From NCBI GenBank assembly GCA_014238155.1, contig JABABQ010000013.1, positions 62,001 to 126,000 of the forward strand: a DNA stretch of 64,000 nucleotides. Reading direction: 5' to 3'. A program made the position numbers and the translations under genes. The notes under the pieces are model-generated. The model worked only from the letters and a program-made list of their open reading frames with translations. It searched no databases and had not been told where the DNA came from. Positions 33,865-56,163 of this stretch are shown piece after piece. Within the stretch, counting starts at the first letter, position 1. Each line of letters starts with the position of its first letter. The stretch comes from Rhizobiaceae bacterium. Lineage in GTDB: Bacteria; Pseudomonadota; Alphaproteobacteria; Rhizobiales; Rhizobiaceae.

Positions 33865-35403
33865 ATGTCCGTTGCGATTGCACTGGGAGGTGGAGCCCCA
33901 AATCTGACATTGATGACCGGAGCACTGCTGGCTCTTGATGAAGCCGGAGTAGAATACAAGGTCATTACCACGACGGGCGCCGGCATGGTCGCAGGCCTGC
34001 TCTATGCGGCGCCGCGTCGCGAATCTAAAAAGGAATCATGGAAGACAGCTCGCCGACGCAGCCTAAAATCGACGCGGGAAATGGGTATAGATGATTTCAT
34101 CTACAACCAGTTCCCGGTCAATTATAAGATTTTCCAGAAACCCGGGAAACTGGCCGAAGCCTATGCCCATGCAGTAAATCCGACTGTCTGGGGGATACCG
34201 CGCGACACCCGCCGTCAAAGATTGTTGGGAGATATGATGGGGTTGTTTGCAGCCGCGATGCAACCATCCAGTCTTAGTTCCAGCAGCCAGGGTCTGTGCC
34301 AACCACCGCCCTGGATCAGCCTGATGGTTGATTTTGATGACCTGGAGAAAAACCTTAAAAAGGGCGACAAGGCGTTTGCGTTGTCTGCCTATTGTATTGA
34401 GGAGAAGGCAGAGCGCACTTTCAGAAAAAAAGAGATTACAGAGGAACATTTCAAAGCCGGCCTGGCAATGCCGTTTCTCTATGCGCCTTATAAACTGCGC
34501 GATACGGACGGGGTGGTGAAAACATTTCTGGAAGGGTCTGCAATCCGCACCATGCAGTTCAACCCTGACGATGTCATGGCAGACAAGAATGTTGATACGC
34601 TGATCTATTTTGACCTGATGGGCAATCGACATTTATTGGCCGAACCGAAAAACATCATTGATGCCTGGGGCAAGTCGATTGTCGCACCATTGACGCAACT
34701 GGCCTATCTGCAGGAACAATTGGTGGACATGAAGCGCTTTTCCTACAGCGCCATGAATTCAAATATGGAAATTATCGCCAATTACGACAACATGACTGGC
34801 AAGATTGAAGACCTGCTGAACGGGCTAAAAGCTGGTGACAATGATCAGGTGAAGGAACTTATCTCCGACGTACGAGAGATCATAAAGTCAGCCCGTAGTG
34901 ATCGCACCGAAATTCTCAACGAAACCGAGACCAGGTTGGAAAGCCTGAACAAGAGCTTTGCTGAAAGAGGTCCACAATACGACGTCGTTGCCGAGAAAGA
35001 GGATGACATATTGCCGAAATGGGTATTGGAAAACAACGACACCACTGGGTTGACCGAGGCCGAGAAAGCACTGCATTTGCGCCGCAAGAACTGGCTTCGT
35101 TATGCGGGCTTTACCATTGATGAACTGGAGAGAATATCCAGCTCCGGTGGTGAAACAATTCATGCAGACCGGCCGAAAATGTTGCGCATGCCATTCAGGC
35201 ACCACATTCCTGAAAAGCACTGGGAAACTGTATTGGACTGGTCACATTCCAACATGTCCAGCTTGTTTGATATCGGCTACGACACGGCTCAGGCATTTCT
35301 CCAGGACCATTATTTGGATGTGGGGCTTGATAAGCCTCCAAAACAAAAACCACTTCAGTATAAACGGATAAATGACGTCCATGAGATAGCTGAAACGGCT
35401 TGA
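33865..35403 (+). CDS. Patatin-like protein lacking the catalytic serine
   Basis: 512 residues from the ATG at 33865 (GGGAGGG just upstream). The N-terminus follows the patatin pattern: a glycine-rich oxyanion loop (ALGGGAPNLTLMTGALLAL), then the strand-turn ITTTGAGMVAGLLYA. There the usual G-x-S-x-G nucleophile reads T-T-G-A-G, so the Ser is replaced by Gly (codon GGC, one change from AGC). The later D-G catalytic motif appears as LEGSAIRT, with Glu. The C-terminal 200 residues are helical and charged, with possible coiled coil (about 300-370). It probably binds rather than cleaves lipid. It lies directly upstream of two small ORFs and the polyketide operon, in the same direction. The patatin relationship is by motif only. 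Confidence 0.62.
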   Translation: MSVAIALGGGAPNLTLMTGALLALDEAGVEYKVITTTGAGMVAGLLYAAPRRESKKESWKTARRRSLKSTREMGIDDFIYNQFPVNYKIFQKPGKLAEAYAHAVNPTVWGIPRDTRRQRLLGDMMGLFAAAMQPSSLSSSSQGLCQPPPWISLMVDFDDLEKNLKKGDKAFALSAYCIEEKAERTFRKKEITEEHFKAGLAMPFLYAPYKLRDTDGVVKTFLEGSAIRTMQFNPDDVMADKNVDTLIYFDLMGNRHLLAEPKNIIDAWGKSIVAPLTQLAYLQEQLVDMKRFSYSAMNSNMEIIANYDNMTGKIEDLLNGLKAGDNDQVKELISDVREIIKSARSDRTEILNETETRLESLNKSFAERGPQYDVVAEKEDDILPKWVLENNDTTGLTEAEKALHLRRKNWLRYAGFTIDELERISSSGGETIHADRPKMLRMPFRHHIPEKHWETVLDWSHSNMSSLFDIGYDTAQAFLQDHYLDVGLDKPPKQKPLQYKRINDVHEIAETA

Positions 35404-35408
35404 ATAAA

Positions 35409-35648
35409 ATGCCAGACCAAACCGGAATTGATAAATCGACGGTTCAAGGTCGTGCGACCTTGTTGAGTATTGCTGAATTTCGCGAGGCGTCGACTGATTT
35501 TTCTGATAACGCCACGGAGTTGATGGCCGCGACGGTTCGCATGCAGATGCTGATTTTGGACGATGCTCGCCTGACGTTATCTGAAGTCGCTGATTGTTTG
35601 TCCGTAGTGGCGCGCAACCGGCGGGCATCTGATGATACCTTTGGTTAA
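35409..35648 (+). CDS. Small hypothetical protein
   Basis: A 79-residue, mostly helical, soluble protein with no motif I recognise. The ATG at 35409 is five bases after the patatin-like stop; a TTG at 35400 overlapping that stop is an alternative. The spacing argues that it is a real member of the transcription unit. It contains the heptad-like run LMAATVRMQMLILDDARLTL. Function unknown. Confidence 0.6.
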   Translation: MPDQTGIDKSTVQGRATLLSIAEFREASTDFSDNATELMAATVRMQMLILDDARLTLSEVADCLSVVARNRRASDDTFG

Positions 35649-35741
35649 AAACGACCAATATACCTATATTGTTGAAACCGGTTACGAACTTGATTAACAA
35701 TGTAGATTGAAGCGCTTAAGTTCAGCAGGGAGTCAACTTGA

Positions 35742-36011
35742 ATGGCCAACAATGAAACACCGACGGGTGACGGAAAAAAGGACCCGGAAGACCGGCTGCT
35801 GGAAGCCGGTGAACAGACACTGCTGGAAATGCAGGATGCAATGTCAACGATGATGAGTGCCAGCACGAAGATGATGCAATCATTTGTCGATATGCGAATG
35901 AGCTATCTCAAAGTTATGCGGATGGGACTGGAAGATCCGCAGGCGTCATTCGATGTCGCATCCAAAAACATGCAGGACGTCGCCAAAGCCATGAAAAAAA
36001 GCTCGGAGTGA
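35742..36011 (+). CDS. Small Met-rich helical protein
   Basis: An 89-residue protein with about a dozen methionines, predicted to be one long amphipathic helix (LLEMQDAMSTMMSASTKMM and following). CAGGGAG lies upstream of the ATG. The pattern recalls phasins and other lipid-surface or coiled-coil proteins, but this is weak. It sits between the patatin-like gene and the AMP ligase, in the same direction. It may be a scaffold for the synthase; that is speculation. Confidence 0.6.
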   Translation: MANNETPTGDGKKDPEDRLLEAGEQTLLEMQDAMSTMMSASTKMMQSFVDMRMSYLKVMRMGLEDPQASFDVASKNMQDVAKAMKKSSE

Positions 36012-36068
36012 TCACCCGCCTGCCAGGCAATCAGGTGTGTTGTCTGGATCGGCTGTGTTCAGTTTGAA

Positions 36069-37427
36069 ATGAGTTCTGTACCCGACCACTGGTATCTGGA
36101 GAGAATCAACTCTCGCGGTGACAAGCCTGCCTTTTTCTGGGAAGGCAGTTCGATTTCCTATGATCAAGTCCATGCCGCTGCTCAAGAGTGGTTGATACAA
36201 CTGGATCACAGGGGCATCGACAAAGGAGATGTGGTGGTTGTGCAGGGTGATCATTCACCCTCAAATTTCGCCCTGATTCTCGCGCTGGCCATTAAAAAGA
36301 CAATTGTGGTGCCGCTGACCAAATTGCCGCCCTCAGTGTTGGACGCTCGCTGTGGCATGGCCGCTGCAAATTGGCTCATCAGCAACTCCGAAACGGGTGA
36401 ATCTGGATTTGACCAACGCACGGTGCGTTCCCGGCACGAATTGCTCGATCAACTCACAAATGAAGGACGAGCCGGACTTATCCTGTTCAGTTCGGGTTCC
36501 TCCGGTGTTCCAAAAACCTGCTTACTGGATTTCGATCGGTTGCTGGAAACGACCCGCACCGAAAAAAAGAGCTTCATCACCCTGGCATTTTTGTTGTTCG
36601 ACCACATTGGCGGTATCAACACGATGATCAATATTCTGGGTCAGGGCGGCACAATTGTGGTGCCAAAAGATAGATCCGTTGCTGCCACCGGATCCCTGAT
36701 CGAAAATCATCGTATTAGCCTGCTGCCGACAAGCCCCACCTTTCTAAAGTTGCTGTTGATGTCAGATGCTGCGTCAAATCATGATCTTTCCAGCCTGGAA
36801 TTGATTACTTACGGTACCGAAGTCATGCCGGAGTCAACGTTGAAAGCGTTACAGGCTGCCTTCCCGGACGTTCGCCTCAAACAAACCTATGGCCTTTCGG
36901 AAATCGGAATTGTGCCGACTCGATCAAAATCTGCCGGGTCGCTTTGGGTGGAGATTGGTGGCAAGGGCATCGAATACGAAGTGCGCGACGACATATTGTG
37001 GCTGCGCGCATCCACTGCGATGATCGGTTATCTCAATGCAGCAAGTCCGTTTGACGCCGAAGGTTGGCTGAACACCGGTGACAGAGTTGAAGTTGATGGA
37101 GATTACCTGCGTATTCTTGGGCGCGATTCCGAGTTGATCAATGTGGGTGGTGAAAAAGTACACCCAGCAGAAGTGGAAAATGTCTTGCTGGAAGCCCCCA
37201 ACATTATCGATGTGACAGTGAAGGCCCGACCCAATCCGGTAACAGGTTCTGTGTTAACGGCAACTGTAAATTTGGTGTCGGATGAAGACAGCCGCAGTTT
37301 AAAATCCAGATTAGGCCAATATTGCCGTGAGCGCCTGGAGCCTCACAAGGTTCCAATCATGTTCAAAATTTCCAATGCACCGCTCCATTCAGATCGATTC
37401 AAAAAAACCCGGGAACCGTATCGGTGA
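36069..37427 (+). CDS. AMP-dependent acyl-CoA/ACP ligase (ANL superfamily)
   Basis: 452 residues, short for the superfamily (usually 500-600), mainly through a compact N-terminal part. Core motifs: LFSSGSSGVPKTCLL (phosphate loop), YGTEVMPESTL, QTYGLSEIGIVPT, NTGDRVEVDGDYLRILGR (ATP ribose/hinge region), LINVGGEKVHPAEVE and a C-terminal DRFKKTREPYR that supplies the catalytic Lys. It would adenylate a carboxylic acid and transfer it to a thiol, here probably the phosphopantetheine of the ACP at 38191. It is the first of six genes that overlap or nearly overlap; its TGA overlaps the GTG of the SDR gene by four bases. The acid is unknown. Confidence 0.87.
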   Translation: MSSVPDHWYLERINSRGDKPAFFWEGSSISYDQVHAAAQEWLIQLDHRGIDKGDVVVVQGDHSPSNFALILALAIKKTIVVPLTKLPPSVLDARCGMAAANWLISNSETGESGFDQRTVRSRHELLDQLTNEGRAGLILFSSGSSGVPKTCLLDFDRLLETTRTEKKSFITLAFLLFDHIGGINTMINILGQGGTIVVPKDRSVAATGSLIENHRISLLPTSPTFLKLLLMSDAASNHDLSSLELITYGTEVMPESTLKALQAAFPDVRLKQTYGLSEIGIVPTRSKSAGSLWVEIGGKGIEYEVRDDILWLRASTAMIGYLNAASPFDAEGWLNTGDRVEVDGDYLRILGRDSELINVGGEKVHPAEVENVLLEAPNIIDVTVKARPNPVTGSVLTATVNLVSDEDSRSLKSRLGQYCRERLEPHKVPIMFKISNAPLHSDRFKKTREPYR

Positions 37428-38197
37428 CAACAAAACAACCGGATTCTCAAGGTACCGCAGATGCCCCTGTAGTGCTCATTAGCGGTGGAAGTCGCGGACT
37501 TGGATTGTCGCTGGTCGACAAATTTTTGGACATGGGCTGGCGCGTTGCAACGTTCAGCAGAAGCAAGACACCACAGATAGAACAAAGAGAGCAGGATCAC
37601 GGCTCGATCGGCAGCGGCCGATTTAGATGGTTTGCCGTGGATGGAACGGATGAGGATCAGATCCGTCTTACGGTCAAAACAATTGTCAAAAACTGGTCGC
37701 GGGTCGACACGCTGATCAACAATGCTGGTGCGGGCAATGATGGACTGCTTGCTCTGCAGCGGATGCAGGATGTTGATCAGCTAATCAACGTCAACTTGCG
37801 CAGCGCAATATTGTTGACGCAATTGTGTAGCAAAAGCATGATCAAAAATGGCCGCGGAAGCATCGTCAATATTTCTTCTGTCAATAGTGTCCGTGGACAC
37901 AGTGGTGTTGCGGTATATAGTGCAACAAAGGCCGCGTTGGATGGATTGACCAGAAGTCTGGCCAGGGAATTAGGACCCCGAAATATCAGGGTCAATTCAG
38001 TGGCTCCCGGATACTTTGAAAGCGCCATGGTGGGAGAACTGTCTGATGACGCCAAAAAGCGCATTCAGCGCCGTACACCGCTGGGACGATTGGCCCAAAC
38101 GAAGGAAATTGCCGAGGCAGTTTGTTTTCTTGCATCGGATCAGGGGTCGTTCATAACTGGCCAGGTACTGGTGGTTGACGGAGGATTGACATGCTAG
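37424..38197 (+). CDS. Short-chain dehydrogenase/reductase, FabG-like
   Basis: 257 residues beginning at a GTG inside the GTGA overlap with the ligase stop. Rossmann motif LISGGSRGLGLSL, NNAGAGNDG, catalytic Ser in VNISSVNSV, YSATKAALDG with the Tyr and Lys, and the C-terminal TGQVLVVDGGLT of the FabG group. It would reduce a 3-ketoacyl (or similar) thioester with NAD(P)H, most likely while carried on the stand-alone ACP encoded next (7-base overlap). This may make the starter unit for the synthase, or act in trans on the growing chain. Confidence 0.9.
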   Translation: MTTKQPDSQGTADAPVVLISGGSRGLGLSLVDKFLDMGWRVATFSRSKTPQIEQREQDHGSIGSGRFRWFAVDGTDEDQIRLTVKTIVKNWSRVDTLINNAGAGNDGLLALQRMQDVDQLINVNLRSAILLTQLCSKSMIKNGRGSIVNISSVNSVRGHSGVAVYSATKAALDGLTRSLARELGPRNIRVNSVAPGYFESAMVGELSDDAKKRIQRRTPLGRLAQTKEIAEAVCFLASDQGSFITGQVLVVDGGLTC

Positions 38198-38571
38198 CAA
38201 AAAATGACGCTGAAAATCGGGTAACTAAAACGGTTCTCGATACAATAACCGAGTTGTTGCACGAACAGGGGCTCGAGAGTGGCGGCATTGATGAATCAGC
38301 CAAGCTTGTCGATACGCTGGGACTGAAGTCCATGGATATCGCTCAGATCGTGCTGGTTCTGGAAGATGAACTGGATGCTGATCCTTTTCAGGAAATCCCA
38401 ATCACCTCAGTGCGCACGGTTGGAGACTTAATCAACGCCTATCGGGTTACTCTCAACCCCGACCTTTTGACGGATCCTCGGGTTTCGCTCATCAACGTCG
38501 CGCCGCCCTCGCCGCCCTCGACGCCCGCGCCGCCGCCGAGTACGTCTCGTCGTCCGAACCGACGCAGATAG
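38191..38571 (+). CDS. Stand-alone acyl carrier protein with an aberrant C-terminal tail
   Basis: Residues 1 to about 87 form a normal acyl carrier protein; the phosphopantetheine Ser is in DTLGLKSMDIAQIVLVLEDE, and helix 3/4 ends at VGDLINAYR. After this comes an atypical Pro/Arg-rich tail of about 40 residues (PPSPPSTPAPPPSTSRRP...). It is encoded by a stretch of roughly four-fifths G+C, unlike the rest of the window. In the -1 frame the same stretch reads as an ordinary Ala-rich sequence ending in TGA at 38586-38588, overlapping the synthase start. A frameshift between about 38440 and 38500 is therefore likely. The carrier presumably receives the acid from the AMP ligase. Confidence 0.82.
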   Translation: MLAKNDAENRVTKTVLDTITELLHEQGLESGGIDESAKLVDTLGLKSMDIAQIVLVLEDELDADPFQEIPITSVRTVGDLINAYRVTLNPDLLTDPRVSLINVAPPSPPSTPAPPPSTSRRPNRRR

Positions 38572-38587
38572 CGATTGGTGAGCGTTG

Positions 38588-41500
38588 ATGGGTCGGGACG
38601 AAGAACACCGGGGGGTCGCTATTGTTGGAATGGCTTGCCGGTTTCCTGGCGCTAACAGCCCTGATGAGTTTTGGCAAAATCTGTGCAATGGCGTCGATTC
38701 AATCAGTCATTTTGACGATGATCTGCTGCTCAAAAATGGGGTGTCGCCCAGAGACATCAAGCGCAGCGATTATGTGAAAGCTTCACCTGTTATTGAGGGC
38801 ATTGATCAGTTTGATGCCGGGTTTTTCGAATATTCACCCCGCGAAGCGCGACTCATGGATCCCCAGCAACGGCTCCTCCTTGAAGTGGCCTGGCATGGAT
38901 TCGAAGACGCCGGCTATGTGCCGGGAGAATTCGATCGTCGTGTGGGCGCTTTTGTTGGCTCTGGAGGGGTTGTAAGCAGTTATCTTCTGGCTCAGTCGGC
39001 GCTTCATGGTGGTGCAACCGGTGGAGTGGAACACCTGGCTAATGACAAGGATTTTCTAAGCACGAAACTGTCCTATAAACTCGGCCTGACGGGGCCGTCA
39101 GTGAATGTGCAAACAGCCTGCTCAACTGCCATGGTGGCTGTCCATCTGGCCTGTCAGAGCATCCTCGATGGCGAGTGTGAAATGGCTGTTGCCGGGAGTT
39201 CGGTTGTCCGCGTTCCGCATATCGTCGGCTATACCCACCGTGCCGGTGATATTCTGTCGCCTGACGGCAAGTGTCGGGCCTATGATGCAGCAGCCGAAGG
39301 AACGGTTTTTGGCAGTGGTGCAGGAATTGTAGTTCTTAAGCATATTGAAGACGCACTTGCTGATGGTGACCGCATCTATGCTGTCATACTTGGCTCGGCG
39401 GTCAACAATGATGGCGCCCAGAAAATGAGCTATACCGCCTCCAGTACAGAAGGGCAGATCCAGGCCATGGCGGCGGCATTTAAAGCAGCTGAAGTGCCAC
39501 CATCAACAATCGGATATGTTGAAGGACACGGCACCGGAACGGTCGTCGGAGATCCTCTGGAAGTGGAAGCCCTTCGACGTAGCTTCCTGAGTGACCGAGA
39601 TACCAAGACGGGAAGTTGTTATCTGGGTTCAGTAAAAACCAATATTGGCCACCTCGAGCAAGCTGCTGGCATAGCCTCTCTGATCAAGACGTGCCTGAGC
39701 CTGTATCATCAGAAAATTCCAGAATCTCTGAATTTCGTCAAACCAAATCCTCGTATGGATCTGGCCAAGGGGCCATTTGTTGTGCCCATCGAAACGGTTG
39801 CTTGGAAGAAAGGTGAGGTTCCCAGACGTGCTGCGATCAATTCTCTAGGTCTGGGAGGAACCAATGCTTTTGCCATTCTGCAGGAGGCTCCAAAACCTGT
39901 TTCACAACAGGTGCCGCAAAATCCGATCAACCTGTTGGCCCTTAGCGCGAATTCTCCAGATGCCTTAGGCAAATCCTTGAAACTCTGGCAGGAACATCTA
40001 ACCAATTGCGCTGCCGAAAAATTGTCCGGCATTTGCCTGGCATCCGCGACCACACGCAAACCCATGAAATACAGGCTGGCCGTATCCGGCCGGAATGCAG
40101 ATGAACTGATTGAATCATTGGCGTCGATGTCAGCAAAACCGACGCAACCGGCGGGCAACCGAAAGCTGGCATTTTTGTTTCCCGGTCAGGGGGCTCAGAC
40201 GCTCGGCATGGCCAGGGAGTTTTACGATACCGAAACACAATTTCGCGCGAGTTTTGACCGGGTTGCATCGCGATTGTTGGATAGGTTTGAACTTGATGTC
40301 AGGACGGCGATTTTTGGCAATCAGGATATCGACGTCCTGACTCACACCACCATGTTGCAGCCTGCACTTTTCGCTGTGGAACTGGGCCTGGCTGATATGC
40401 TCAAAAGCTGGGGCATTCACCCTGATGCGGTCATGGGGCACAGCGTTGGGGCATTCGCGGCAGCAGTAATATCGGGAGTTTTTACACCGGAAGAAGCTTC
40501 CGATTTGATCGCCGAACGGGGACGTTTGATGGGGGAATTGCCCAGCGGTGGAGCGATGGCCGCATTGTTTGGAGATGCAGATATTGCCAAAGACATGTGT
40601 CGGCAGGTTGAAGGCATTTCCATTGCCGCATTAAACAGCCCGATGAGCACCGTAATTGCCGGCAAAGAAGCGGCGGTTACTGCTGCCATAAGTCTGGCTG
40701 AAGAGGCAGGCGTGGCCTGCCGTCAATTACCCGTATCCCATGCATTTCATTCGTCATTGATGGAACCTGCTGCAAGGGCGTTTGAGAATTTCGCCGCGAA
40801 TGCCAAGGCCGAGACTCCAAACATTCCATTTGTATCTGACATGACCGGGGAGTTGCTGACCGCTGCACCCGATGGTGCCTATTTGACGCAGCACATTCTT
40901 AATCCCGTGCGATTTGCTGATGGTGTGCAAAAACTGCTTGAACTTGGCTGCACAGATTTTGTTGAGGTGGGCCCTGGAACCGCGCTGCGCAGTTTTGTGT
41001 CTGCGGCTGTTGGTGAAGGGTCCGTGGAAATGCACGGCGTGCTGGGTCAATCGGGGGATGATTGGGCCGCGACGGCCAAAACCCTGTGTCGATTATGGGA
41101 GAAAGGTCATCCACTCGACTTCAAGTCCTATTATGGCACCGACAACCCATCGCGGATCACCATCCCCAAATACCCGTTCGACCATCAGTCTTATTGGCTC
41201 GACCAACAATCAAATGCGGCAGCAGCAACGGCCAATAACCTGTGTGGTGAAGAACTCAAAATCCCCGGTGATAGTCATTGCTTTCAGGCCCGCTATTCAA
41301 CTTCACAACCTGGATGGTTGGCAGATCATCGGGTTTATGGCGAAATCACATTGCCGGTTGCCGCTGTACTGCTTGCTTTTATGGAGGCCGCTGAGCTGGT
41401 AACTGGAACCTCCATGGAAGTCGGCAATCTCACGTACCGGGAGGCCTGCCTGATCGGTGATGGAGAAATCAGGCGGTTGAATTTTAATCTTCCCCGGGAC

Positions 41501-44500
41501 CTCTCATCTGGAATTGCAAAGCTACAAAGCCTTGCAGATGATCGTGGTCGACAGGACGATTGGCGATCCCATTGTGATGCGTCGATAACTTCGTTTTCGA
41601 TGGAACCGCGACAAGTGGCTGATATTGAGGCCCTGCGTCGCCTGCACCTGCATGAGGTGCAGCCGCAGACATACTACAATGTGCTGGATCAGATCGGGCT
41701 GAGCTATGGACCGGGCTTCAGAAATGTTCGCCAGTTGTGGGTGGGTGATCACAGTGCCCTGGCCCGCATCAACCTCTCGTCGAACGCGGTTAAATCGGAA
41801 GCACCAATGCATCCGGCAGTTCTGGATGCTTGCCTTCATCTGTTCCCAGCAGCCACCGGCGACTATGGAGATTTTTCGGATGTCCCCACGGATATGGAAA
41901 CGACCTATCTCCCGATCACCGTGGAAAAGTTTGTCATCTATAGGGAAGTTCCCGACAGTTTGTGGTCCCATTGCAGATTGCGGCCGGTCGACCATCAGGA
42001 AGACGGTCGGCACATTGTTGATGTGGAAATATATGCAGAAGACGGCTCGCCGGTGGCCTCACTGACCGGATTAACGGTCAAGATGCTCTCCCGCGAGGAA
42101 TTTTTCCCGGTGGGACAGGCACGGGTGAAGGAATGGCTCTACGGTCTGGACTGGCGTTTACTTGACGCTGTCTCAGCTCCATCTGAGAGGCAACCAGCCC
42201 GCTGGTTGATTGTCGCCGACAAAAAGGGTGACATTGCACCGCTCCTCGAAGCCATGGACCATAGTGGCGATTCCTGGACGCTGATGTCTCAGCAAGCCCT
42301 GTTGCAGAAATCCGGTGACCAGAGCGGTGAGGCGGCCAGCGAAAGGAGTCTGTCCTTGTCCGGGCAATTGATTGATGGCATCGTGGTCGCTTCGTCCTTG
42401 TCATGTCCCCCGCTGGCATTGCTCAGCCCGGAAGATCTGACGGGCGAAACTCAATGGCAGTTCGACGTCTCAAAAGCTGTGCTGAAACTGGCAATCCATA
42501 TAGCTGAATCAAGCGATATCCAGCCAAAAATCTGGTATCTCACACGCGGTGCCCAAGCACCATCAGGTGATTATCTGGGAGGTGAAGCCATACAGTCGGT
42601 TCTATGGGGACATGGTCGGGCGATTGCTCAGGAACACCCCAACGTCTGGGGTGGCCTGATCGATATTGATGACCGCACCTCAGGGAACGAAATCCTGCAG
42701 GAATTGCAATCCCTTGACGGCGAAGATCAAATAGCGTTTCGCGACGGCAAGAGATTTGCCCCAAGACTCATTCGACGCGAGTTTGACGATTACACCCTGC
42801 CGGTAATTCCACCGATCAAACCAGATGCCAGCTATTTGATCACCGGGGGACTTGGCGCTTTGGGCCTCAAGGTCGCGCACTGGTTGGTGGCAGAACATGG
42901 TGCCCAGACAGTCTGGCTTGTCAGTCGTCGCACGCCTTCACCAGAACAGCAGCAAATGATCAATACACTGGAAGAGCTTGGAGCCACTGTACAAATCTCC
43001 TCAGTGAATATTATCGATCAACAGCAGGTGCAAAATCTGATTGCCTATATTTCTCAGCATGGCCCGGAGCTCGATGGGATCTTCCATTGTGCCGGATTGC
43101 TGGATGACGGCATCATGATGGAGATGGACTGGCAGCGCTATCATCGCGTCACTGGGGCCAAAATTGAAGGAAGCTGGGCTCTGCATCTGGCTGTTGAACA
43201 TCTGCAGCTTGGCCACTTCGTTATGTTCTCATCCATACTCAGCGTCATCGGATCCATGGGACAATTGAACTATGTCTCGGGGAATTCATTTCAGGACAGT
43301 CTGGTGAGCTATCGAAGACGACTTGGATTGCAAGCAACAGCAATGAACTGGGGACCTTGGGAAAATGGGGGCCTGGCCGTGGAATCCGGCGAAAGGGGTG
43401 AGGCTATATGGCGGGCTCGTGGAACCAAATTTATTCCAGCCGATATCGGAATGGAGGCGATGTCGGTGACATTGGCACAAAATCAGGAACATATGGTGGT
43501 CACTCACACTGACTGGAATCGCTTTGTTTCCCAATTTGCCAACGTTCCCAGATTGTACAAGGAACTCAGTCAGGCAGGCGCCGGTACCGGGCGTCAGATA
43601 CTGGAAGATCTCTCAGGCGCGATGGAGCGATTGCAGGCTGCCGATCAGGACGATCGGCAATCTCTGCTGATCTCAGCAATTGAGCAAATTTGTTGCGTCA
43701 ATCTGGAAATCGACAATCTGTCAGACCACAACCTGTCGCTTCGAGAAATGGGTCTGGATTCATTGATGTCGATTACTGTGATCAATGACATCGAAAGCGT
43801 ATTTGAGGTTCGGCTGCCAGCGCGTGAATTATTGCGCGGCCCGTCAGTCAATGAGCTATCTGATATGGTGGCACTGGCTTTACCCGCGATATTCAATTCC
43901 AGGGAAGCGACCGGTGGCGCTGAGCGGCTAGCCGAAAAATCTGCCAAGTCTGACAAGGATGGGTCGAACACACGTCAGACAAAAAGGTCCACAGGATCGT
44001 GGTTGGTGATTCAGCGTCCGCGGCCAAACGCGCGTTTCCGCCTGATTTGCTTTCCATTTGCTGGTGGCGGGTCGGCGGTGTTCGACAATTGGGGGGAGGC
44101 CTTTAATCCGGATATCGAGATTGTTTCGGTCGAAGCTCCGGGACGACTCGGCAGGATCGATGAAGAACCGGTGCGTACGATCGAGCAATTCGCCCGTGGT
44201 CTGTATCCTGAATTGCTTGAAAAGCTGGACCGGCCCTACGCGGTTCTCGGCCACTGTCTGGGTGGATTGACGCTCTACGAAACTCTCAGGTTCTTTCAGG
44301 CTCGGCATGATTCCATGCCTCAGCATATTTTTGTTTCGGGTGCGAGACCACCCAGTGTATTACGAGCTCCTGGAAATTTCGAGGAAGAACTCAACCAACG
44401 GCTAAAGTCCTACGTCAATTACAAGGCAGGCAGGTTGGGCTACCAGCAACCGGACGAAGTGTTTGCCGAGATTGTCCGTGCATTCGGTATTTCGGAAAGC

Positions 44501-44806
44501 TCGAAGATGCTTGAGGAAGAGGAGCTTCGACAACTGGTACTACCAACTGTCAGAGCCGAATTTGAGATGACAAGTCGCTATGTCTATTTGCCGGAACACC
44601 CCTTCCCGGTGCCAATTACCTGTTTTAGGGGCATGCGTGACGACTATTTCAGGCGCGTTCACGCATCGATCTGGCAGAAATTTACAACCGGAAATTTTGA
44701 ATTGTTTGAGCGCGATACCGGCCACTTTGCCATTGTTGAAGATTTTGATTTCATTCGCTCCAATATCGAAATGCGCCTGCTTCAGGTCGACGCAGTCAGC
44801 GCATGA
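38588..44806 (+). CDS. Type I polyketide synthase, KS-AT-DH-KR-ACP-TE
   Basis: 2072 residues from the ATG at 38588 (GGTGAG upstream). KS: Cys178 in QTACSTAMV, His314 in EGHGTGT, His355 in NIGHLEQ. AT (about 525-835): GQGAQ, Ser619 in GHSVGA, and HAFH, the malonyl-CoA signature. DH: His914 in HRVYGEITLP and Asp1080 in LDACLH. KR: TGGLGALG near 1419, LDD near 1504 (B-type, giving D-hydroxyl) and Tyr1562. ACP: Ser1725 in GLDSLMS. TE: GHCLGG with Cys1890 where Ser is usual, then DTGHFAI. No enoyl reductase or methyltransferase is visible, so the chain would stay unsaturated. With one module it may act once or iteratively. It overlaps the type II thioesterase gene (ATGA). The product is unknown. 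Confidence 0.95.
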   Translation: MGRDEEHRGVAIVGMACRFPGANSPDEFWQNLCNGVDSISHFDDDLLLKNGVSPRDIKRSDYVKASPVIEGIDQFDAGFFEYSPREARLMDPQQRLLLEVAWHGFEDAGYVPGEFDRRVGAFVGSGGVVSSYLLAQSALHGGATGGVEHLANDKDFLSTKLSYKLGLTGPSVNVQTACSTAMVAVHLACQSILDGECEMAVAGSSVVRVPHIVGYTHRAGDILSPDGKCRAYDAAAEGTVFGSGAGIVVLKHIEDALADGDRIYAVILGSAVNNDGAQKMSYTASSTEGQIQAMAAAFKAAEVPPSTIGYVEGHGTGTVVGDPLEVEALRRSFLSDRDTKTGSCYLGSVKTNIGHLEQAAGIASLIKTCLSLYHQKIPESLNFVKPNPRMDLAKGPFVVPIETVAWKKGEVPRRAAINSLGLGGTNAFAILQEAPKPVSQQVPQNPINLLALSANSPDALGKSLKLWQEHLTNCAAEKLSGICLASATTRKPMKYRLAVSGRNADELIESLASMSAKPTQPAGNRKLAFLFPGQGAQTLGMAREFYDTETQFRASFDRVASRLLDRFELDVRTAIFGNQDIDVLTHTTMLQPALFAVELGLADMLKSWGIHPDAVMGHSVGAFAAAVISGVFTPEEASDLIAERGRLMGELPSGGAMAALFGDADIAKDMCRQVEGISIAALNSPMSTVIAGKEAAVTAAISLAEEAGVACRQLPVSHAFHSSLMEPAARAFENFAANAKAETPNIPFVSDMTGELLTAAPDGAYLTQHILNPVRFADGVQKLLELGCTDFVEVGPGTALRSFVSAAVGEGSVEMHGVLGQSGDDWAATAKTLCRLWEKGHPLDFKSYYGTDNPSRITIPKYPFDHQSYWLDQQSNAAAATANNLCGEELKIPGDSHCFQARYSTSQPGWLADHRVYGEITLPVAAVLLAFMEAAELVTGTSMEVGNLTYREACLIGDGEIRRLNFNLPRDLSSGIAKLQSLADDRGRQDDWRSHCDASITSFSMEPRQVADIEALRRLHLHEVQPQTYYNVLDQIGLSYGPGFRNVRQLWVGDHSALARINLSSNAVKSEAPMHPAVLDACLHLFPAATGDYGDFSDVPTDMETTYLPITVEKFVIYREVPDSLWSHCRLRPVDHQEDGRHIVDVEIYAEDGSPVASLTGLTVKMLSREEFFPVGQARVKEWLYGLDWRLLDAVSAPSERQPARWLIVADKKGDIAPLLEAMDHSGDSWTLMSQQALLQKSGDQSGEAASERSLSLSGQLIDGIVVASSLSCPPLALLSPEDLTGETQWQFDVSKAVLKLAIHIAESSDIQPKIWYLTRGAQAPSGDYLGGEAIQSVLWGHGRAIAQEHPNVWGGLIDIDDRTSGNEILQELQSLDGEDQIAFRDGKRFAPRLIRREFDDYTLPVIPPIKPDASYLITGGLGALGLKVAHWLVAEHGAQTVWLVSRRTPSPEQQQMINTLEELGATVQISSVNIIDQQQVQNLIAYISQHGPELDGIFHCAGLLDDGIMMEMDWQRYHRVTGAKIEGSWALHLAVEHLQLGHFVMFSSILSVIGSMGQLNYVSGNSFQDSLVSYRRRLGLQATAMNWGPWENGGLAVESGERGEAIWRARGTKFIPADIGMEAMSVTLAQNQEHMVVTHTDWNRFVSQFANVPRLYKELSQAGAGTGRQILEDLSGAMERLQAADQDDRQSLLISAIEQICCVNLEIDNLSDHNLSLREMGLDSLMSITVINDIESVFEVRLPARELLRGPSVNELSDMVALALPAIFNSREATGGAERLAEKSAKSDKDGSNTRQTKRSTGSWLVIQRPRPNARFRLICFPFAGGGSAVFDNWGEAFNPDIEIVSVEAPGRLGRIDEEPVRTIEQFARGLYPELLEKLDRPYAVLGHCLGGLTLYETLRFFQARHDSMPQHIFVSGARPPSVLRAPGNFEEELNQRLKSYVNYKAGRLGYQQPDEVFAEIVRAFGISESSKMLEEEELRQLVLPTVRAEFEMTSRYVYLPEHPFPVPITCFRGMRDDYFRRVHASIWQKFTTGNFELFERDTGHFAIVEDFDFIRSNIEMRLLQVDAVSA

Positions 44807-45582
44807 TCGAACAGCAAAAGAGCGATGGTCGATTGTGGCTTGATTCCTGGCCTAATCGACTGACACCGCTTGTCGACTTGATCTGTATTCCTGGTGCCGG
44901 TGCCGGAGCATCGAGCTACAGGACCTGGCAGCACAAACTGCCGGGCTATTGTGCCATGCATGTGTGCCAGTTACCTGGTCGGGAAAATCGCATAGATGAG
45001 CCGGCTGTCGACAGTCTGAGTGTTGCGGTTGACCAAATATGCTCAGCCTATCTTGACCGCAGGACAATCGAAAAACCGCTGGTCCTTTATGGTCACAGCA
45101 TGGGAGGTGTGATTGCGTTTGAACTGGCCAGAAATCTGCAAGCCCGGCGGCGCGGCCCGGCTGCCATTGTCATGTCGGCTTCAACTCCGCCACGCCATTC
45201 AACCAAGGCACCGACATTGAGTGACGCTGCTTTGAAAGAAATGCTCCTGGCCTATGATGTCAACAATAGTTTGGTGGTGCAAAATGACGAATTGTTTGCA
45301 ACTCTTGCCCCTGTCTTGAAGGGTGATTTTCACCTGTTGCGCAGCCATGTCGTTACAGCGGAACCGAAATTAACGTGTGGCGGAATGCATTTATTGAGCG
45401 GCGAGGGTGATCCGGTTGTTCCAGATGATTCTGTCGCCGAATGGAAACGATATTTTGGCGGTTCGGTATCTCAGCACCCATTTCCTGGCGGCCACCAGTT
45501 TCCGTTTCGCGAATCTGAAACTGAGGTAATTGCATTGCTGGAAAACCTGGTGCGTCGGGTTGTCGGTTCGCAGGACTCGTGA
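44803..45582 (+). CDS. Type II (editing) thioesterase
   Basis: 259 residues, an alpha/beta hydrolase of the type II thioesterase group. Motifs: LICIPGAGAGASSYRTW, QLPGRENRIDEP, the nucleophile YGHSMGGVIAFELA with the normal Ser, and PGGHQFPF with the catalytic His. Such enzymes clear stalled or mis-primed acyl groups from carrier domains. It starts in the ATGA overlap with the synthase and overlaps the PPTase gene by four bases. This one keeps Ser, in contrast to the Cys of the synthase's own TE domain. Confidence 0.92.
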   Translation: MIEQQKSDGRLWLDSWPNRLTPLVDLICIPGAGAGASSYRTWQHKLPGYCAMHVCQLPGRENRIDEPAVDSLSVAVDQICSAYLDRRTIEKPLVLYGHSMGGVIAFELARNLQARRRGPAAIVMSASTPPRHSTKAPTLSDAALKEMLLAYDVNNSLVVQNDELFATLAPVLKGDFHLLRSHVVTAEPKLTCGGMHLLSGEGDPVVPDDSVAEWKRYFGGSVSQHPFPGGHQFPFRESETEVIALLENLVRRVVGSQDS

Positions 45583-46301
45583 CAGTGGCTGAAGCGATTC
45601 ATGTCTACTGGTACGGTCACTCGGTACCATCAAAAGAATTTTCATCGTGGCCCGACCTTCTTGATAAAACAGAATTGGAAACTTACCATTCAATAGAACG
45701 ACCGGAAGTTGCAGAATCGTTTGCCTATCGTCGCAGTTTGCTGCGGCGGCTTCTGGCGCGCCACTCGGGCACACCTGCTGATCAATTGACCTTTGATACG
45801 GAGCCGCATGGCAAACCGTCACTGATCGACACTCACCACAAACTCCATTTTAACACTTCGCAGACAAGAACCAGTGGTTTGATATCGATTGGTGACCAAG
45901 GTCCAGTTGGAATTGATATCGAAATTATGCGTCAGCTGGACGCGGCCGCGTTTTCTGAAAAAATTCTCTCGCCATCTGAACGCATTGAGTTTGCGGCTCT
46001 GTGTTCGAAGGACCGGCTTTCCACGATATTCGGATATTGGACTGCAAAGGAGGCCATGATTAAGGCAATTGGGCTTGGTTTGAATCTGAACCTGTTGCGT
46101 CAGATCTCGGTGCCGCTGTCGCCGCCGAACATGCTAATCAAGCAGGCTGAGTGGCTGCCAGTAAAACTAACCGGTCCGCTGGAAGGACATGGGGAGTGGT
46201 ACATTTGCACCCAATTTGTGCCTGCACCGTTTCCCCATCCCGCGATATTCAGCGTTGCCAGCCAAAAAAAGCTGCGGTTGAACATTCACCAAGTGTCGTG
46301 A
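45579..46301 (+). CDS. Sfp-type 4'-phosphopantetheinyl transferase
   Basis: 240 residues, the usual length for Sfp-type enzymes. It transfers phosphopantetheine from CoA to the Ser of carrier proteins, here the free ACP and the synthase ACP. Key motifs: EPHGKPSL, LHFNTSQT, VGIDIEIM with the metal-binding acids, and WTAKEAMIKAIGLG. It starts with GTG in the GTGA overlap with the thioesterase stop. As the last gene of the operon, it means that the cluster carries its own activation. It is convergent with the cyclase gene ending at 46354, 52 bp away. Confidence 0.93.
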   Translation: MTVAEAIHVYWYGHSVPSKEFSSWPDLLDKTELETYHSIERPEVAESFAYRRSLLRRLLARHSGTPADQLTFDTEPHGKPSLIDTHHKLHFNTSQTRTSGLISIGDQGPVGIDIEIMRQLDAAAFSEKILSPSERIEFAALCSKDRLSTIFGYWTAKEAMIKAIGLGLNLNLLRQISVPLSPPNMLIKQAEWLPVKLTGPLEGHGEWYICTQFVPAPFPHPAIFSVASQKKLRLNIHQVS

Positions 46302-46353: not shown

Positions 46354-49300
46354 TTAAAGTTCAAGCTGTTTGGTAGCATCAAGAAGGATGGGCCAGGAAT
46401 GGCCTTCTTCAAACTTATCGTAGGCGGTCTGTAGAATCTTGCGACCCCTTGCGGTTTCGCCATCTTCGTTCAACAGGGCAAAAAGCAAAGATGCCGCGCT
46501 CAACTCTGCGGTCAGATGTCCCCGTTCCTGCGCCTTTGCGACGCCACGTTCAAAACAAGCACGGGCCTCGGTTCGATTGTCTTGCAGCAAATGTATGTGT
46601 CCTTGAGTGCAAATAATATCGACCTCAGAATACCGGGCATCATTCTCTTCGATGAGTTCCATCGCTTCAGCAAGTTTGTTGTTTGCTGTCGACATTTCCC
46701 CTGCGAGCGCAAGCGCCCGGGCATAAACCGGCAGGAGAACGGTTCTGAATACAGAAAACTTCAAAGTTTTTAGCAGTTCCAGTGCGGAACCCAGTTCCGG
46801 CAATGCTTCTTTTGCCTGCTGTTTGTGAACCATGCTTACCGCCAACGAAGCGTGGCCCAGGGCTGCCCAAAGGGGTGTTTCTTCAAGTTCACTGATTTCG
46901 ATACATTTTTGAGCAATTTTCTCCCCAATCGGCGATATTCTGGCCGCGCACAGGAAGCATGCCAAGTGTCCAAGCGCATAGCCCGACGTGTGGGGATGAT
47001 TGACGACATCAAGATCGTTCAACACCTTTTTGGCCAGTTCACCTGCCGTGTCCAGACGACCGTTCAATATCAGCACGCCGATCCGGTAGCACTTTCCTGC
47101 AATACTCACATCTTGCCCAAATCGCGAGGCAAATTGTTTGTGACGCTCGGGGGCGTAGTGATCGTCCACCTGGGAGAGAGCCTCCATAGCGGGCTCAATT
47201 CGACCCATCATGGTCAAAACAGTCCCCCGCAGCCTTAGGCCAAGCGCGACAGCCAGATCATCATTCGTTTGGCCGCTTATTTCACAAATATTGTTGGCGA
47301 TTTCCAGAGCAACCCGATTGCGCCCCGGTACGTATTGTCCAGCCCATCGTCCGTATAATCCATCAACCAGCAGAACAGCATCGTCGGTAACTTTGGCTAT
47401 CGTTTCGATTTCTGCATAGGTCTTCACCGTTGATTCCGCAGCATAGCCGAAATGGGCGATCCGGGCCTGACCGGAAAGCAGCAGCAACTGCTTGCGTTGT
47501 TGCAATACTTCGTTGCTGGGCTCCTGCTGATCCAGCAAAGCGATGGTTTTTTCAAGATGGGCGATTGCTTCGGCATAGGCAGGTCGTGACAGAGCCTGCT
47601 CGGCTGCGATACGACCGTAGCGCACGGCTTCAACCAGCATGCCGGCTTCTGCGGCATGGTGCGATAAAACGCCCGGCGTCGTGGCCTCCACTTCCTTCAG
47701 CACTTTGAAGATCATGCCGTGAATCTCCTGCCGTCGTCGATTGAGCAGGCTCTCGTAGGCCGCATCACGCACCAGAGCATGTTTGAAAATATGGGCCCCT
47801 TCAACACCACTGCGGGAAAAGACAAGTTCAATTTTCACAAGGCTTTCAAGCGACTCATTTATTGCCTCGGTTGAAAGTTCTGATACCAGCGCCAGGGGAC
47901 CGGCTTCAAACTCGCGACCAAATGCGCTGGCAATCTGCGCCACTTCCTTGACTTCAGGTAACTGGTCAAGGCGCGCCATCAAAGTATCATGCAGGCTCAC
48001 CGGAACACTCAGGTCACCGCTTTCGACCATAACCTTTGACAGCTCTTCGACAAAAAGCGGTACTCCGTCGGTGCGCTGCACAATGAGGTCGATCGTCTCT
48101 TTCGACAGCTTGTCACCCCCCATTCGGGACACGATTTCCTTTACTCCGCGTCGGCCCAATCGATTGAGCCGCACGCTGGTCGAATAAGAGCGGCTTTGAA
48201 AACCGATCTCCTTTTCCGGTCGGCAGGTAATCATCAGCATAATGCGTTCGCGTTCCAATCTGTCGACCACAGAGTCTATCAGTTCAAGTGTGGTCGGATC
48301 GGTCCAGTGCGCATCTTCCACCAGCATGATCAACGGCTGTTGTTTGGAAAGCGCAATGATATAATTGACAAGTGTGGAGAACGTGGCGGCGCGTTTGGCG
48401 GAGGGCGACATAGTCAACTCAGCGTCGGTACCCGCACAATCGACTCCCAACAGATCTGCAACAATACCAACTGATGTTTGGTCAACGACCCCGGCTTCGT
48501 CCAACAACCGCTGGACTTTGCCCAATTGCTCTTCAATCGAATCTTCGCTTTGGATACCGGTCGCCGCGGTCAACCGACTGGTTACCGGCCAAAAAGCGGT
48601 GTCCTGGTGATAGGGAGAACTGTGAAAAGCCGCGAAGAGATAGTCATCCGTGGACATGGATTCAAAAAGAGCACGGGTAATACGGCTTTTGCCGATCCCG
48701 GCCTCGCCAATAAGACTGACGACCTGCCCTTCACCGTCGCGAGTCAATTTCCACCTGTCGACAAGTAACGCCAATTCATTCGCTCGACCTACCAAGGACC
48801 CATAGCTTTGGCCCTTGCGTGCAGCAAAGCGATCATAATCGTGATTGTCGGAAACCAGGGCAAAGATGTGCTGTGATTGTGGAATACCTTTTAGGTTGTG
48901 CTTGCCGAGGTCTTCCAGTTGAAATGCATTGCCGAGCAATTGCCTTGTGCTATCTGAAATAACGATCTGATCGGTCTGCGCAAATCCCTGCAACCGGGCA
49001 GCAAAATTCAGCGTCTCGCCAATGGCAGTATTGTCGGTTGAATAGTTGCGGCCAATCAGTTCTCCGACCACCACCAGTCCCGTCGCTATCCCGATACGGC
49101 AGGCCATCGGTTCACCCAATAACTTGTATTTGGGGACGGCTTCAATAATTTTTAGCGCCGACTCGACCGCACGCTCAGCAGCGTCTTCCATGGCTTGTGG
49201 CCAACCAAAAAAGCACAACAACCCATCGCCCAGATATTGCGCAACATGTCCTCCAAACCGCGTGACATGACCAGATACCGTGTCCTGATAATCTCTGAGC

Positions 49301-49659
49301 GCATCGCTCCAGTCTTCAGGGTCGAGTTGAGTGGAGAGATTGGTTGAGCCCACCAGATCAACAAACATCACAGTTAACCGTCGCCGTTCACGCGACTCAT
49401 GGTGTTCAGATGCTGCCGGAGACGGCGCAACGTCTGGCGTGGTTTTTATGTCTACCGGGGAGGTGACTTCAGGCTCCACCGGAAACAGTAATTCAACAGC
49501 GCGTCGAAATCTAATCCTGTCGCCAATGTTGAGACCCAGCTCTTTAAGGTCGGCTTCGGTCAGGTCGTTGACCAGTTCGGTGGTGATGTCGTTTTCTTCG
49601 AAAACATCAACGTGACTCTCGCAGCCAATGGAAGTCAGCCAGCTCTTGATATCCCCCAT
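46354..49659 (-). CDS. SAM-class III cyclase-ATPase-TPR signalling protein
   Basis: About 1101 residues from the ATG at 49659; the frame stays open to 49803. Order: SAM domain (MGDIKSWLTSIG..., LTEADLKELGL), class III nucleotide cyclase (LTVMFVDLVGSTNLS; YLGDGLLCFFGWP; NFAARL), AAA/NACHT-like ATPase (SLIGEAGIGKSRITRAL Walker A; LIMLVEDAHWTDPTTLEL Walker B), then a long TPR-like helical tail. Both metal Asp and the transition-state Arg are present. The purine-selecting Lys expected before LGDG is Gln (HVAQYLGDG). It would make cAMP, possibly with altered selectivity, under control of the ATPase/TPR part. A paralogue lies at 52801-56037. Confidence 0.9.
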   Translation of the reverse strand: MGDIKSWLTSIGCESHVDVFEENDITTELVNDLTEADLKELGLNIGDRIRFRRAVELLFPVEPEVTSPVDIKTTPDVAPSPAASEHHESRERRRLTVMFVDLVGSTNLSTQLDPEDWSDALRDYQDTVSGHVTRFGGHVAQYLGDGLLCFFGWPQAMEDAAERAVESALKIIEAVPKYKLLGEPMACRIGIATGLVVVGELIGRNYSTDNTAIGETLNFAARLQGFAQTDQIVISDSTRQLLGNAFQLEDLGKHNLKGIPQSQHIFALVSDNHDYDRFAARKGQSYGSLVGRANELALLVDRWKLTRDGEGQVVSLIGEAGIGKSRITRALFESMSTDDYLFAAFHSSPYHQDTAFWPVTSRLTAATGIQSEDSIEEQLGKVQRLLDEAGVVDQTSVGIVADLLGVDCAGTDAELTMSPSAKRAATFSTLVNYIIALSKQQPLIMLVEDAHWTDPTTLELIDSVVDRLERERIMLMITCRPEKEIGFQSRSYSTSVRLNRLGRRGVKEIVSRMGGDKLSKETIDLIVQRTDGVPLFVEELSKVMVESGDLSVPVSLHDTLMARLDQLPEVKEVAQIASAFGREFEAGPLALVSELSTEAINESLESLVKIELVFSRSGVEGAHIFKHALVRDAAYESLLNRRRQEIHGMIFKVLKEVEATTPGVLSHHAAEAGMLVEAVRYGRIAAEQALSRPAYAEAIAHLEKTIALLDQQEPSNEVLQQRKQLLLLSGQARIAHFGYAAESTVKTYAEIETIAKVTDDAVLLVDGLYGRWAGQYVPGRNRVALEIANNICEISGQTNDDLAVALGLRLRGTVLTMMGRIEPAMEALSQVDDHYAPERHKQFASRFGQDVSIAGKCYRIGVLILNGRLDTAGELAKKVLNDLDVVNHPHTSGYALGHLACFLCAARISPIGEKIAQKCIEISELEETPLWAALGHASLAVSMVHKQQAKEALPELGSALELLKTLKFSVFRTVLLPVYARALALAGEMSTANNKLAEAMELIEENDARYSEVDIICTQGHIHLLQDNRTEARACFERGVAKAQERGHLTAELSAASLLFALLNEDGETARGRKILQTAYDKFEEGHSWPILLDATKQLEL

Positions 49660-49967
49660 ATCCAGAATGTTGCCCCTGTTTACGCCCTCTACTAGTCCTT
49701 CTTCAATACCAACAAACAGGGGTGGATACCATCCCATTCGACCGGATTGGTCGAGTTTGTCCTGGAGAAGATAATTGGCAGGTGCGTTGGATATTTTTGG
49801 CATTCGGTCAATATGGAAGGCAAAAGATTTATGTTGGCAGAACGGTGGATTTTCCGGTTCTGCAGCGATCGCTGTGCCATATCTGATTCAAGGGTTACTT
49901 GGCATAATCATGCCAGCCCGGAAGCCCTATTATTAGATGCTCGCTGGCACTTGACGACTTGGAAAAA

Positions 49968-50257: not shown

Positions 50258-50950
50258 ATGGACGCAAACACTCTCGCACTACTGGCAGAAATGCCGCTGT
50301 TTCATGATATTGACGCTGAACAATTGTCATCGCTGGGGATCAGGGCACGGCTAAAAACTCTTGAGTCGGGTCAAATATTATTTGATCAAACCGACCGGTC
50401 CCGCGACGTCTATTTTTTGCTTTCCGGACGCCTGCTGGCAGTTCATCTGACCCCAGACGGGCGCGAAATGATATTTGGCCGTATTGATATTCGCACCTAT
50501 CAGGGCGAGTTGGCAGCTTTGGATAATGGCGAACGATCACTGTCGATATACGCTCACCGGCAGGCCCAGATATTGGTTGTGAGCCAGGCAGATTTTATCG
50601 CAGTGATGGACCAGATACCTTTGGTGCGTCAAAGAGTCGTACGTGATCTTGTGGCCACAGTTCGCAGCCTGACAGAAAGGCTATATGAGGCGACATTGTT
50701 TTCTGCAGAGCAGCGGGTTCGGTCCTATCTGGTGCGCCTGGCGCTTGAATCCGGGCAAATGCACAAAGGTGGTGAAATACTGGACGCTCCAACCCATTCG
50801 GAGATCGCCAATTGGGTCGGTTCAAACCGCGAAGTCGTCAGCCGGATAATGTCGGGTTTAAAAAAGTCAGGAATCATCCACACACAACGCAAGCTGATCA
50901 GATTTGATGAACCGGACATGCTACTTCAATCACTGTCCGAAGATGTGTGA
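50258..50950 (+). CDS. CRP/FNR-family cyclic-nucleotide-responsive regulator
   Basis: 230 residues. The N-terminal cyclic-nucleotide-binding beta-roll includes GQILFDQTDRSRDVYFLLSG, and the phosphate-binding cassette YQGELAALDNGERSLSIYA keeps the G-E-L and R-S residues that contact cAMP in E. coli CRP. A long central helix follows, then the winged helix-turn-helix THSEIANWVGSNREVVSRIM. There is no Cys cluster, so it is not an oxygen-sensing FNR. GAGGGACT precedes the ATG. Flanked by three class III cyclases, it is a natural candidate receptor for their product; direct evidence is absent. Confidence 0.9.
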   Translation: MDANTLALLAEMPLFHDIDAEQLSSLGIRARLKTLESGQILFDQTDRSRDVYFLLSGRLLAVHLTPDGREMIFGRIDIRTYQGELAALDNGERSLSIYAHRQAQILVVSQADFIAVMDQIPLVRQRVVRDLVATVRSLTERLYEATLFSAEQRVRSYLVRLALESGQMHKGGEILDAPTHSEIANWVGSNREVVSRIMSGLKKSGIIHTQRKLIRFDEPDMLLQSLSEDV

Positions 50951-56037: not shown

Positions 56038-56163
56038 TTCGTGATCCCATCCCCAAAACAGAATGCCCAATTCGGGCCGATACAAGACTTTCTGGTGTCA
56101 AAGACACTATCTCAAATCGTCAGGCAGTCCTACCTAATTATTGGTTGGCGCATCCAATGTTGG

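Follow-up and report, generated by a model that had tools for sequence, protein, structure and literature searches.

A single-module polyketide synthase locus in a Rhizobiaceae bacterium with a probable mupirocin/thiomarinol-type priming cassette

Genes at the locus

We analysed a window of 64,000 nucleotides, part of contig JABABQ010000013.1 from a Rhizobiaceae bacterium (assembly GCA_014238155.1). The source genome is a draft of 4.8 Mb in 77 contigs and is 97.75% complete. Six genes in the window encode an AMP ligase, a short-chain dehydrogenase/reductase (SDR), a stand-alone acyl carrier protein (ACP), a polyketide synthase (PKS), a type II thioesterase (TEII) and a 4'-phosphopantetheinyl transferase (PPTase). 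We consider it likely that this block joins a MupQ-MupS-MacpD-type priming cassette to a one-module cis-AT PKS. The genes of the block, and those just upstream, are listed below; L016 and L017 are loci of two genus relatives.

33865..35403, + strand: patatin-like protein without the catalytic Ser, a probable pseudo-hydrolase of the cluster; the motif TTGAG replaces GxSxG and EGS replaces patatin DG[GA]
35400..35648, + strand: small open reading frame (ORF) of 82 amino acids (aa); matches in L016 (74%) and L017 (58%), none in Pfam
35742..36011, + strand: small ORF of 89 aa, directly upstream of the ligase gene; matches in L016 (89%) and L017 (74%)
36069..37427, + strand: AMP ligase, MupQ/TmlQ-like; Pfam AMP-binding, 107.5 bits
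37424..38197, + strand: SDR, a putative MupS/TmlS-like acyl-thioester reductase; PDB 4yxf (MupS), 252.8 bits
38191..38571, + strand: stand-alone ACP, MacpD-like, with a C-terminal tail; profile match to MacpD, 60.3 bits
38585..44806, + strand: single-module cis-AT synthase, KS-AT-DH-KR-ACP-TE; Pfam and aligned active-site motifs; alternative start ATG at 38588
44027..44803, + strand: terminal thioesterase (TE) domain of the synthase, RifR-like, nucleophile Cys (GHCLGG); RifR, 97 bits
44803..45582, + strand: TEII with a Ser nucleophile (GHSMGG); Pfam Thioesterase, 125.9 bits, and motif
45579..46301, + strand: PPTase; Pfam ACPS, 54.3 bits

An original prediction, made from the DNA letters, had described the six ORFs as one compact cluster equipped with enzymes for loading, editing and activation. 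All six were located and the description holds. Pfam and NCBIfam return the AMP ligase, SDR, KS-AT-DH-KR-ACP-TE synthase, TEII and PPTase that had been named. The stand-alone ACP was recovered by NCBIfam ACP models (best E 7.3e-6) and by comparison with solved ACPs (best E 1.3e-5); Pfam gave no match to it at E 0.001. As predicted, four of the five junctions overlap by 4-7 bases (ligase/SDR 4, SDR/ACP 7, synthase/TEII 4 and TEII/PPTase 4). A gap of 13 bases lies between the ACP and synthase genes. The 7-base SDR/ACP overlap is also present in Bradyrhizobium and Burkholderia loci, described below, and on plasmid pTML1.

Relationships of the cassette and the synthase

The sequence of the SDR places it with MupS and not simply among ketoreductases. 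Compared with 371 sequences of solved structures, the SDR matched MupS best (PDB 4yxf, 252.8 bits, runner-up 165.8), and it could also be aligned to MupS. It is 51% identical to the thiomarinol SDR. In a tree of SDRs, the two fall in a clade of seven rows (support 86/99).

For the ACP, we built a profile from five cassette ACPs, with the thiomarinol ACP excluded. The profile ranked MacpD (6tg5) first, at 60.3 bits compared with 37.2 for the next match. An earlier profile, which included the thiomarinol ACP, had given 80.4 against 38.6 bits; it was biased and was replaced. The cassette ACPs have an invariant Ser47 and common DPF and ITS motifs. The window ligase is 53% identical to its Bradyrhizobium counterpart, 50% to that of Burkholderia, 46% to that of a gammaproteobacterial genome (L077) and 40% to the thiomarinol ligase.

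Plasmid pTML1 surfaced in a plasmid search with the window ligase. The gene order ligase-SDR-ACP-KS is identical in the window and on pTML1, the encoded proteins being 40, 51, 32 and 38% identical, respectively. The PPTase of the window is 25% identical to a pTML1 protein over 216 aa, and 37% identical to that of a Bradyrhizobium cluster over 120 aa. The pTML1 record itself carries generic product names; the Tml and Tmp names used here follow general usage and PMC10098928.

The synthase has all of the catalytic motifs of its KS, AT, DH, KR, ACP and TE domains, aligned with those of its relatives. Among the 25 NCBIfam matches listed for this protein, none reached the cut-off of its model. The AT has GHSVG and HAFH, and the KR has LDD. 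HAFH is a malonyl-type AT motif and LDD marks a B-type KR. With the DH motifs also intact, these features agree with the predicted chemistry, in which a malonate-extended chain would pass through a D-hydroxy to an alpha,beta-unsaturated state.

A tree of 24 KS domains contains a clade of eight rows (support 100/97). These are the KS domains of the window, the two genus relatives, Bradyrhizobium, Burkholderia, Azospirillum, L077 and TmpF. Outside it fall the other nine KS domains of pTML1 in the tree, as well as those from cyanobacteria and Rhodococcus; the nearest are one from Planktothrix and one from Rhodococcus. As outgroup the tree had a single KAS row, short and on a very long branch. Six rows had been removed beforehand by a length filter (Streptomyces L108, two from L079, the KAS rows L133 and L135, and one pTML1 KS-like protein). 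The original prediction had looked to such a phylogeny to separate iterative from modular synthases. The tree groups the window KS with TmpF, and its rows include no characterised iterative cis-AT synthase.

The terminal TE has RifR as its best match among solved structures (97 bits), and its Asp and His align with those of RifR. The nucleophile is Cys, within GHC[LI]GG, in all six TE-bearing synthases (one genus contributes three of them). This Cys TE, and the serine-less patatin discussed below, look built in.

Taken together, the genes for a ligase, a MupS-type SDR and a discrete MacpD-type ACP lie contiguously before a KS gene. A mupirocin/thiomarinol-type priming cassette is a better reading of this trio than a generic acid loader plus a ketoreductase.

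Distribution and surroundings

At E 1e-40, five of 151 genomes (the source genome and its relatives) contained a match to the ligase. Three of these are among the 15 from the genus, including the source genome. The other two are more distant members of the order, with ligases at 41-42%; their surroundings have no cassette or synthase match and they were rejected as carriers. Both genus relatives (Hyphomicrobiales MH2_Bin52, L016, and Rhizobiaceae DT_97, L017) carry the block in the same order. Their ligases are 82% and 73-75% identical to that of the window, and the L017 synthase is split over two frames. The block is kept in relatives, as the prediction required, yet in only three of the 15 genus genomes. 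The ACP profile matched two of 396 relatives of genome G010, both known block carriers.

Searched by tblastn at E 1e-60, the SDR was matched in six of 72,556 plasmid records, five from Bradyrhizobium and one from Burkholderia stagnalis. By plasmid typing four are conjugative, one is mobilizable and the Burkholderia plasmid is non-mobilizable. Matches to the ligase, SDR and synthase occur in that order on all six, and three of the loci (two Bradyrhizobium, one Burkholderia) were read. Bradyrhizobium belongs to another family of the window's order; both loci run ligase-SDR-ACP-synthase-TEII-PPTase, with transposase genes around them. The Burkholderia locus has five genes, ligase-SDR-ACP-synthase-TEII, with no PPTase in the stretch examined. 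In L077 (Gammaproteobacteria MGR_bin175), ligase-SDR-ACP accompanies a KS-AT-DH-KR-ACP synthase without a TE. The order is kept in the genus, in another family of the order, in Burkholderia and in this gammaproteobacterial metagenome-assembled genome. Hence, the six-gene block is real and conserved, and its arrangement is beyond chance. The cluster family looks rare and scattered.

In whole-genome samples, the SDR was matched in one of 337 genomes of the class (the source genome itself, E 1e-85), five of 398 of the phylum (the source and four others) and two of 397 of the order (the source and one other). The five additional carriers were rejected as clusters; no synthase match lay in the 20 kb around any of them. 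In four of the five the SDR is 40-43% identical by blastp (that of L118 was missed by the ORF picker). A ligase match of 26-41% was also present in four, adjoining the SDR in three, and L117 has a weak ACP match as well. They may represent PKS-free loci more loosely related to the cassette. In L121 (8322-10670), from a genome of the same order, a ligase (41%) adjoins an SDR (43%), with no synthase match. A scan of viral contigs with the window SDR gave no match.

A block of different composition, ACP (~100 aa)-SDR (~232 aa)-ligase (~448 aa), is widespread in several phyla (L024, L033, L048, L064, L087, L095). Such blocks, from Chloroflexota, Bacillota, Desulfobacterales and others, were considered as the same cassette and rejected, the SDRs being ~26-32% identical and the nine placed in the tree forming a separate clade. 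Those examined adjoin KASIII, nonribosomal peptide synthetase (NRPS), MBOAT, GNAT or glycosyltransferase genes, and the block looks like an acyl-ACP supply module. Both block types adjoin in L077 (5845-17821), where SDR232-ligase is followed by ligase-SDR252-ACP-synthase. On a plasmid of Rhizobium sp. T1470 (L104, 7297-11693), relatives of the SDR and ligase lie near a gene annotated as a CmlS-type halogenase.

Upstream of the block, the original prediction had noted a serine-less patatin-like gene and two small ORFs. The first belongs with the cluster; the small ORFs were matched solely within the genus. In the patatin-like protein, Gly sits at the Ser of GxSxG, as had been described, and the Pfam Patatin match is weak (24.8 bits, cut-off 27.7; an Azospirillum relative scores 43.4 bits). 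Both residues of the dyad are lost, Ser to Gly and the Asp of DG[GA] to Glu, in the proteins of the window, L009/L017 and Azospirillum. The protein was matched in three of 61 related genomes, precisely the three block carriers, and in one of 72,556 plasmid records, Azospirillum B510. The B510 relative is 38% identical, also lacks the Ser, and its gene overlaps the end of a gene for a 40% identical synthase. The association thus recurs in two lineages with different gene order, which argues for a role of the patatin-like protein together with the synthase. Tblastn gave no match to the gene in the stretches from Bradyrhizobium, Burkholderia, L077 and pTML1, and so the gene appears dispensable for some members. 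A structure prediction from two sequences had a mean pLDDT of 36.5 and was left unused.

The ORF just before the ligase gene encodes 96 aa in Bradyrhizobium and 93 aa in Burkholderia, with no detectable similarity to the 89-aa ORF of the window. An impression that this small ORF is a phasin was dropped; Pfam gave nothing of that kind. Foreign origin by composition was likewise discarded. For the seven ORFs of at least 100 aa, from the patatin-like gene to the PPTase gene, GC (0.49-0.55) and GC3 (0.51-0.58) resemble the rest of the window.

Convergent to the block is a cyclase gene (46354-49803), common to the three block carriers at 74-89%. Hence, the conserved neighbourhood may be larger than the block. 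The product is a large SAM-cyclase-AAA protein. Further on are a CRP-like regulator (50258-50950) and a thiamine pyrophosphate enzyme (51051-52637; NF005712, 5-guanidino-2-oxopentanoate decarboxylase, 585 bits, cut-off 500). Two ORFs, at 52801-56085 (38% match) and 56384-58123, have the size and place of cyclase-like relatives in L008.

Proposed pathway and comparison with known systems

What the genes are, how they are ordered and conserved, their motifs and their places in the trees were observed directly, and from these we infer each chemical step, the starter and the product. The PPTase would arm both carrier proteins. With a short dicarboxylic acyl group, malonyl or succinyl, tethered to the cassette ACP, the ligase would then activate its free carboxyl. 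Reduction of this activated terminus to an alcohol by the MupS-like SDR would yield 3-hydroxypropionyl-ACP or 4-hydroxybutyryl-ACP. This hydroxyacyl starter would be accepted by the KS and extended with malonate, and KR and DH processing would leave a terminally hydroxylated enoyl chain. The module may carry out one round or several. The RifR-like Cys thioesterase would release the chain, possibly as a lactone, and TEII would remove wrong chains.

The original prediction had the ligase/ACP pair load the starter. The cluster does have its own loading enzymes; the acid picked up by the ligase is what we revise. With a MupS-like SDR, ligase and ACP probably building the starter from a dicarboxylic acyl-CoA, that starter is probably an omega-hydroxyacyl unit, 3-hydroxypropionyl or 4-hydroxybutyryl, rather than an acid acquired by the ligase. 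The choice between malonyl and succinyl is not readable from the sequence.

We favour this route because the SDR is nearest to MupS, the ACP is nearest to MacpD, the gene order is that of pTML1 and the KS is in one clade with TmpF. Several observations weigh on the other side. The 86/99 support for the SDR clade falls below the tool's star. Searched alone, the window ACP is ambiguous, MacpD not being ranked top, and it is only 27-32% identical to the thiomarinol ACP. The ligase is just 40% identical to the thiomarinol ligase, and Chloroflexota ligases of other contexts (48-50%) are comparable to those of PKS-linked blocks (46-53%). In a quick ligase tree, from which MupQ was absent, the thiomarinol ligase sat on a long branch with weak support and a long-branch warning. 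The Azospirillum synthase, 40% identical, has no cassette in the 36 kb examined, and so this kind of synthase can occur without a cassette close by. Finally, the details of the cassette chemistry are second-hand or general background.

As a variant of the same route, the synthase could act iteratively and elongate the same starter to a longer omega-hydroxy polyene acid. The single module stands alone. Moreover, the draft genome has one PKS-type KR domain at E 1e-20, that of the window synthase, and therefore no partner PKS is at hand; nor was a multi-module trans-AT PKS of the mupirocin/thiomarinol (monic acid) kind found in it. The precedents differ. According to PMC10098928, MmpF, directly downstream of the mupirocin cassette, extends its starter twice, and TmpF is presumed by the authors to act only once. 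The KS tree provides no characterised iterative cis-AT synthase as a neighbour. On balance, iteration is a serious possibility to which we give somewhat less than even weight.

Alternatively, the ligase could load a free carboxylic acid onto the ACP, with the SDR as a trans-acting ketoreductase or later tailoring enzyme. Both families include fatty-acid, aryl-acid and FabG-type enzymes, and ligase relatives at 41-50% accompany another kind of SDR, with NRPS, KASIII or MBOAT genes in the loci examined. Conversely, the SDR is far nearer to MupS than to any other solved SDR, the ACP is MacpD-like and the pTML1 KS is in the same clade as that of the window. The KR of the synthase is intact, and therefore a second ketoreductase would be superfluous. 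We regard free-acid loading as unlikely. Transfer of the acyl product to a surface polymer or lipid, rather than release as a free metabolite, appears slightly less probable still: a polysaccharide deacetylase gene lies upstream of the L077 synthase, which has no TE, some ligase relatives adjoin MBOAT (L087) or glycosyltransferase and GNAT (L064) genes, and the patatin-like protein is from a lipid-acting family, but a TE is present in the window, Bradyrhizobium, Burkholderia and Azospirillum synthases, and among the block ORFs no acyl- or glycosyltransferase was recognised besides the AT of the synthase.

The interpretation in the original prediction is partly supported. Priming by the cassette, which we prefer, would give an orphan PKS cluster a concrete starter chemistry. 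It would also show a mupirocin-type starter cassette beyond mupirocin and thiomarinol, before one lone cis-AT module whose small size would allow its full reconstitution. If the reading is right, the cluster offers a compact route from malonyl-CoA to omega-hydroxy enoic acids or lactones. It also names a family to seek in rhizobia and Burkholderia, with two further checkable oddities, a Cys thioesterase that is conserved and a patatin without its serine. More speculatively, and as a whole rather improbably, the loci could be a partly plasmid-borne, self-contained pathway family. An omega-hydroxy C3/C4 starter made from a core metabolite would pass through one cis-AT module and a Cys TE to a small lactone. 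In some members the serine-less patatin would be a non-hydrolytic partner, and in soybean-nodule Bradyrhizobium the product would be a transferable signal or defence metabolite.

Known systems resemble parts of the cluster. As outlined in PMC6668435, the TE of ObiF (obafluorin NRPS) has a Cys within a RifR-like triad and closes a beta-lactone. The window TE has the same triad and nucleophile, and a lactone product is thus an open possibility and not a finding; ObiF is an NRPS, whereas the window TE sits on a PKS. Azospirillum sp. B510 (pAB510d, AZL_RS37570) has the 40% identical synthase with a Cys TE, the serine-less patatin downstream and a TEII-like alpha/beta hydrolase upstream. It differs in having no ligase-SDR-ACP cassette in the 36-kb stretch, where the AMP-binding protein is 28% identical to the window ligase.

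Among the five Bradyrhizobium plasmids and plas2 of Burkholderia stagnalis YJ-2, the three loci read share the order ligase-SDR-ACP-synthase-TEII, and the synthases are 44% identical over nearly their full length. Bradyrhizobium has the PPTase, as in the window (two loci examined). The Burkholderia locus differs; the PPTase is not in the stretch, and there is an extra SDR and a gene of the acrylyl-CoA reductase family behind the block (L100, 29526-30539; 406 bits, cut-off 297). The latter is a weak hint of C3 chemistry, and its product could act as a trans enoyl reductase. We found no functional description of these plasmid clusters in the open-licence literature. A T1PKS cluster in B. stagnalis YJ-2, 13% similar to difficidin, is mentioned in PMC12195442; it could not be tied to this locus.

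The claim that the cluster is not a characterised one stands for the whole gene set, for which no characterised cluster was found in the open-licence PMC literature. It does not stand for the starter half, which is already known from mupirocin and thiomarinol. There, again according to PMC10098928, MupQ, MupS and MacpD convert malonyl-CoA to 3-hydroxypropionyl-ACP, and the thiomarinol starter is 4-hydroxybutyrate (4HB). Gene types and their order match pTML1, MupS and MacpD are the closest counterparts of the SDR and ACP, and TmpF falls in one clade with the KS. The likeness ends after the KS. TmpF, a KS protein of 750 aa, has a degenerate AT region (GEGVG replaces GHSxG, and there is no HAFH). 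Similarly, MmpF is described as a short KS with a degenerate AT region, served by trans-acting tailoring enzymes (PMC10098928). In the window, by contrast, the AT motifs are intact and the protein continues through DH-KR-ACP-TE. The best reading of the cluster is an uncharacterised variant in which the mupirocin/thiomarinol starter cassette serves a single cis-AT module.

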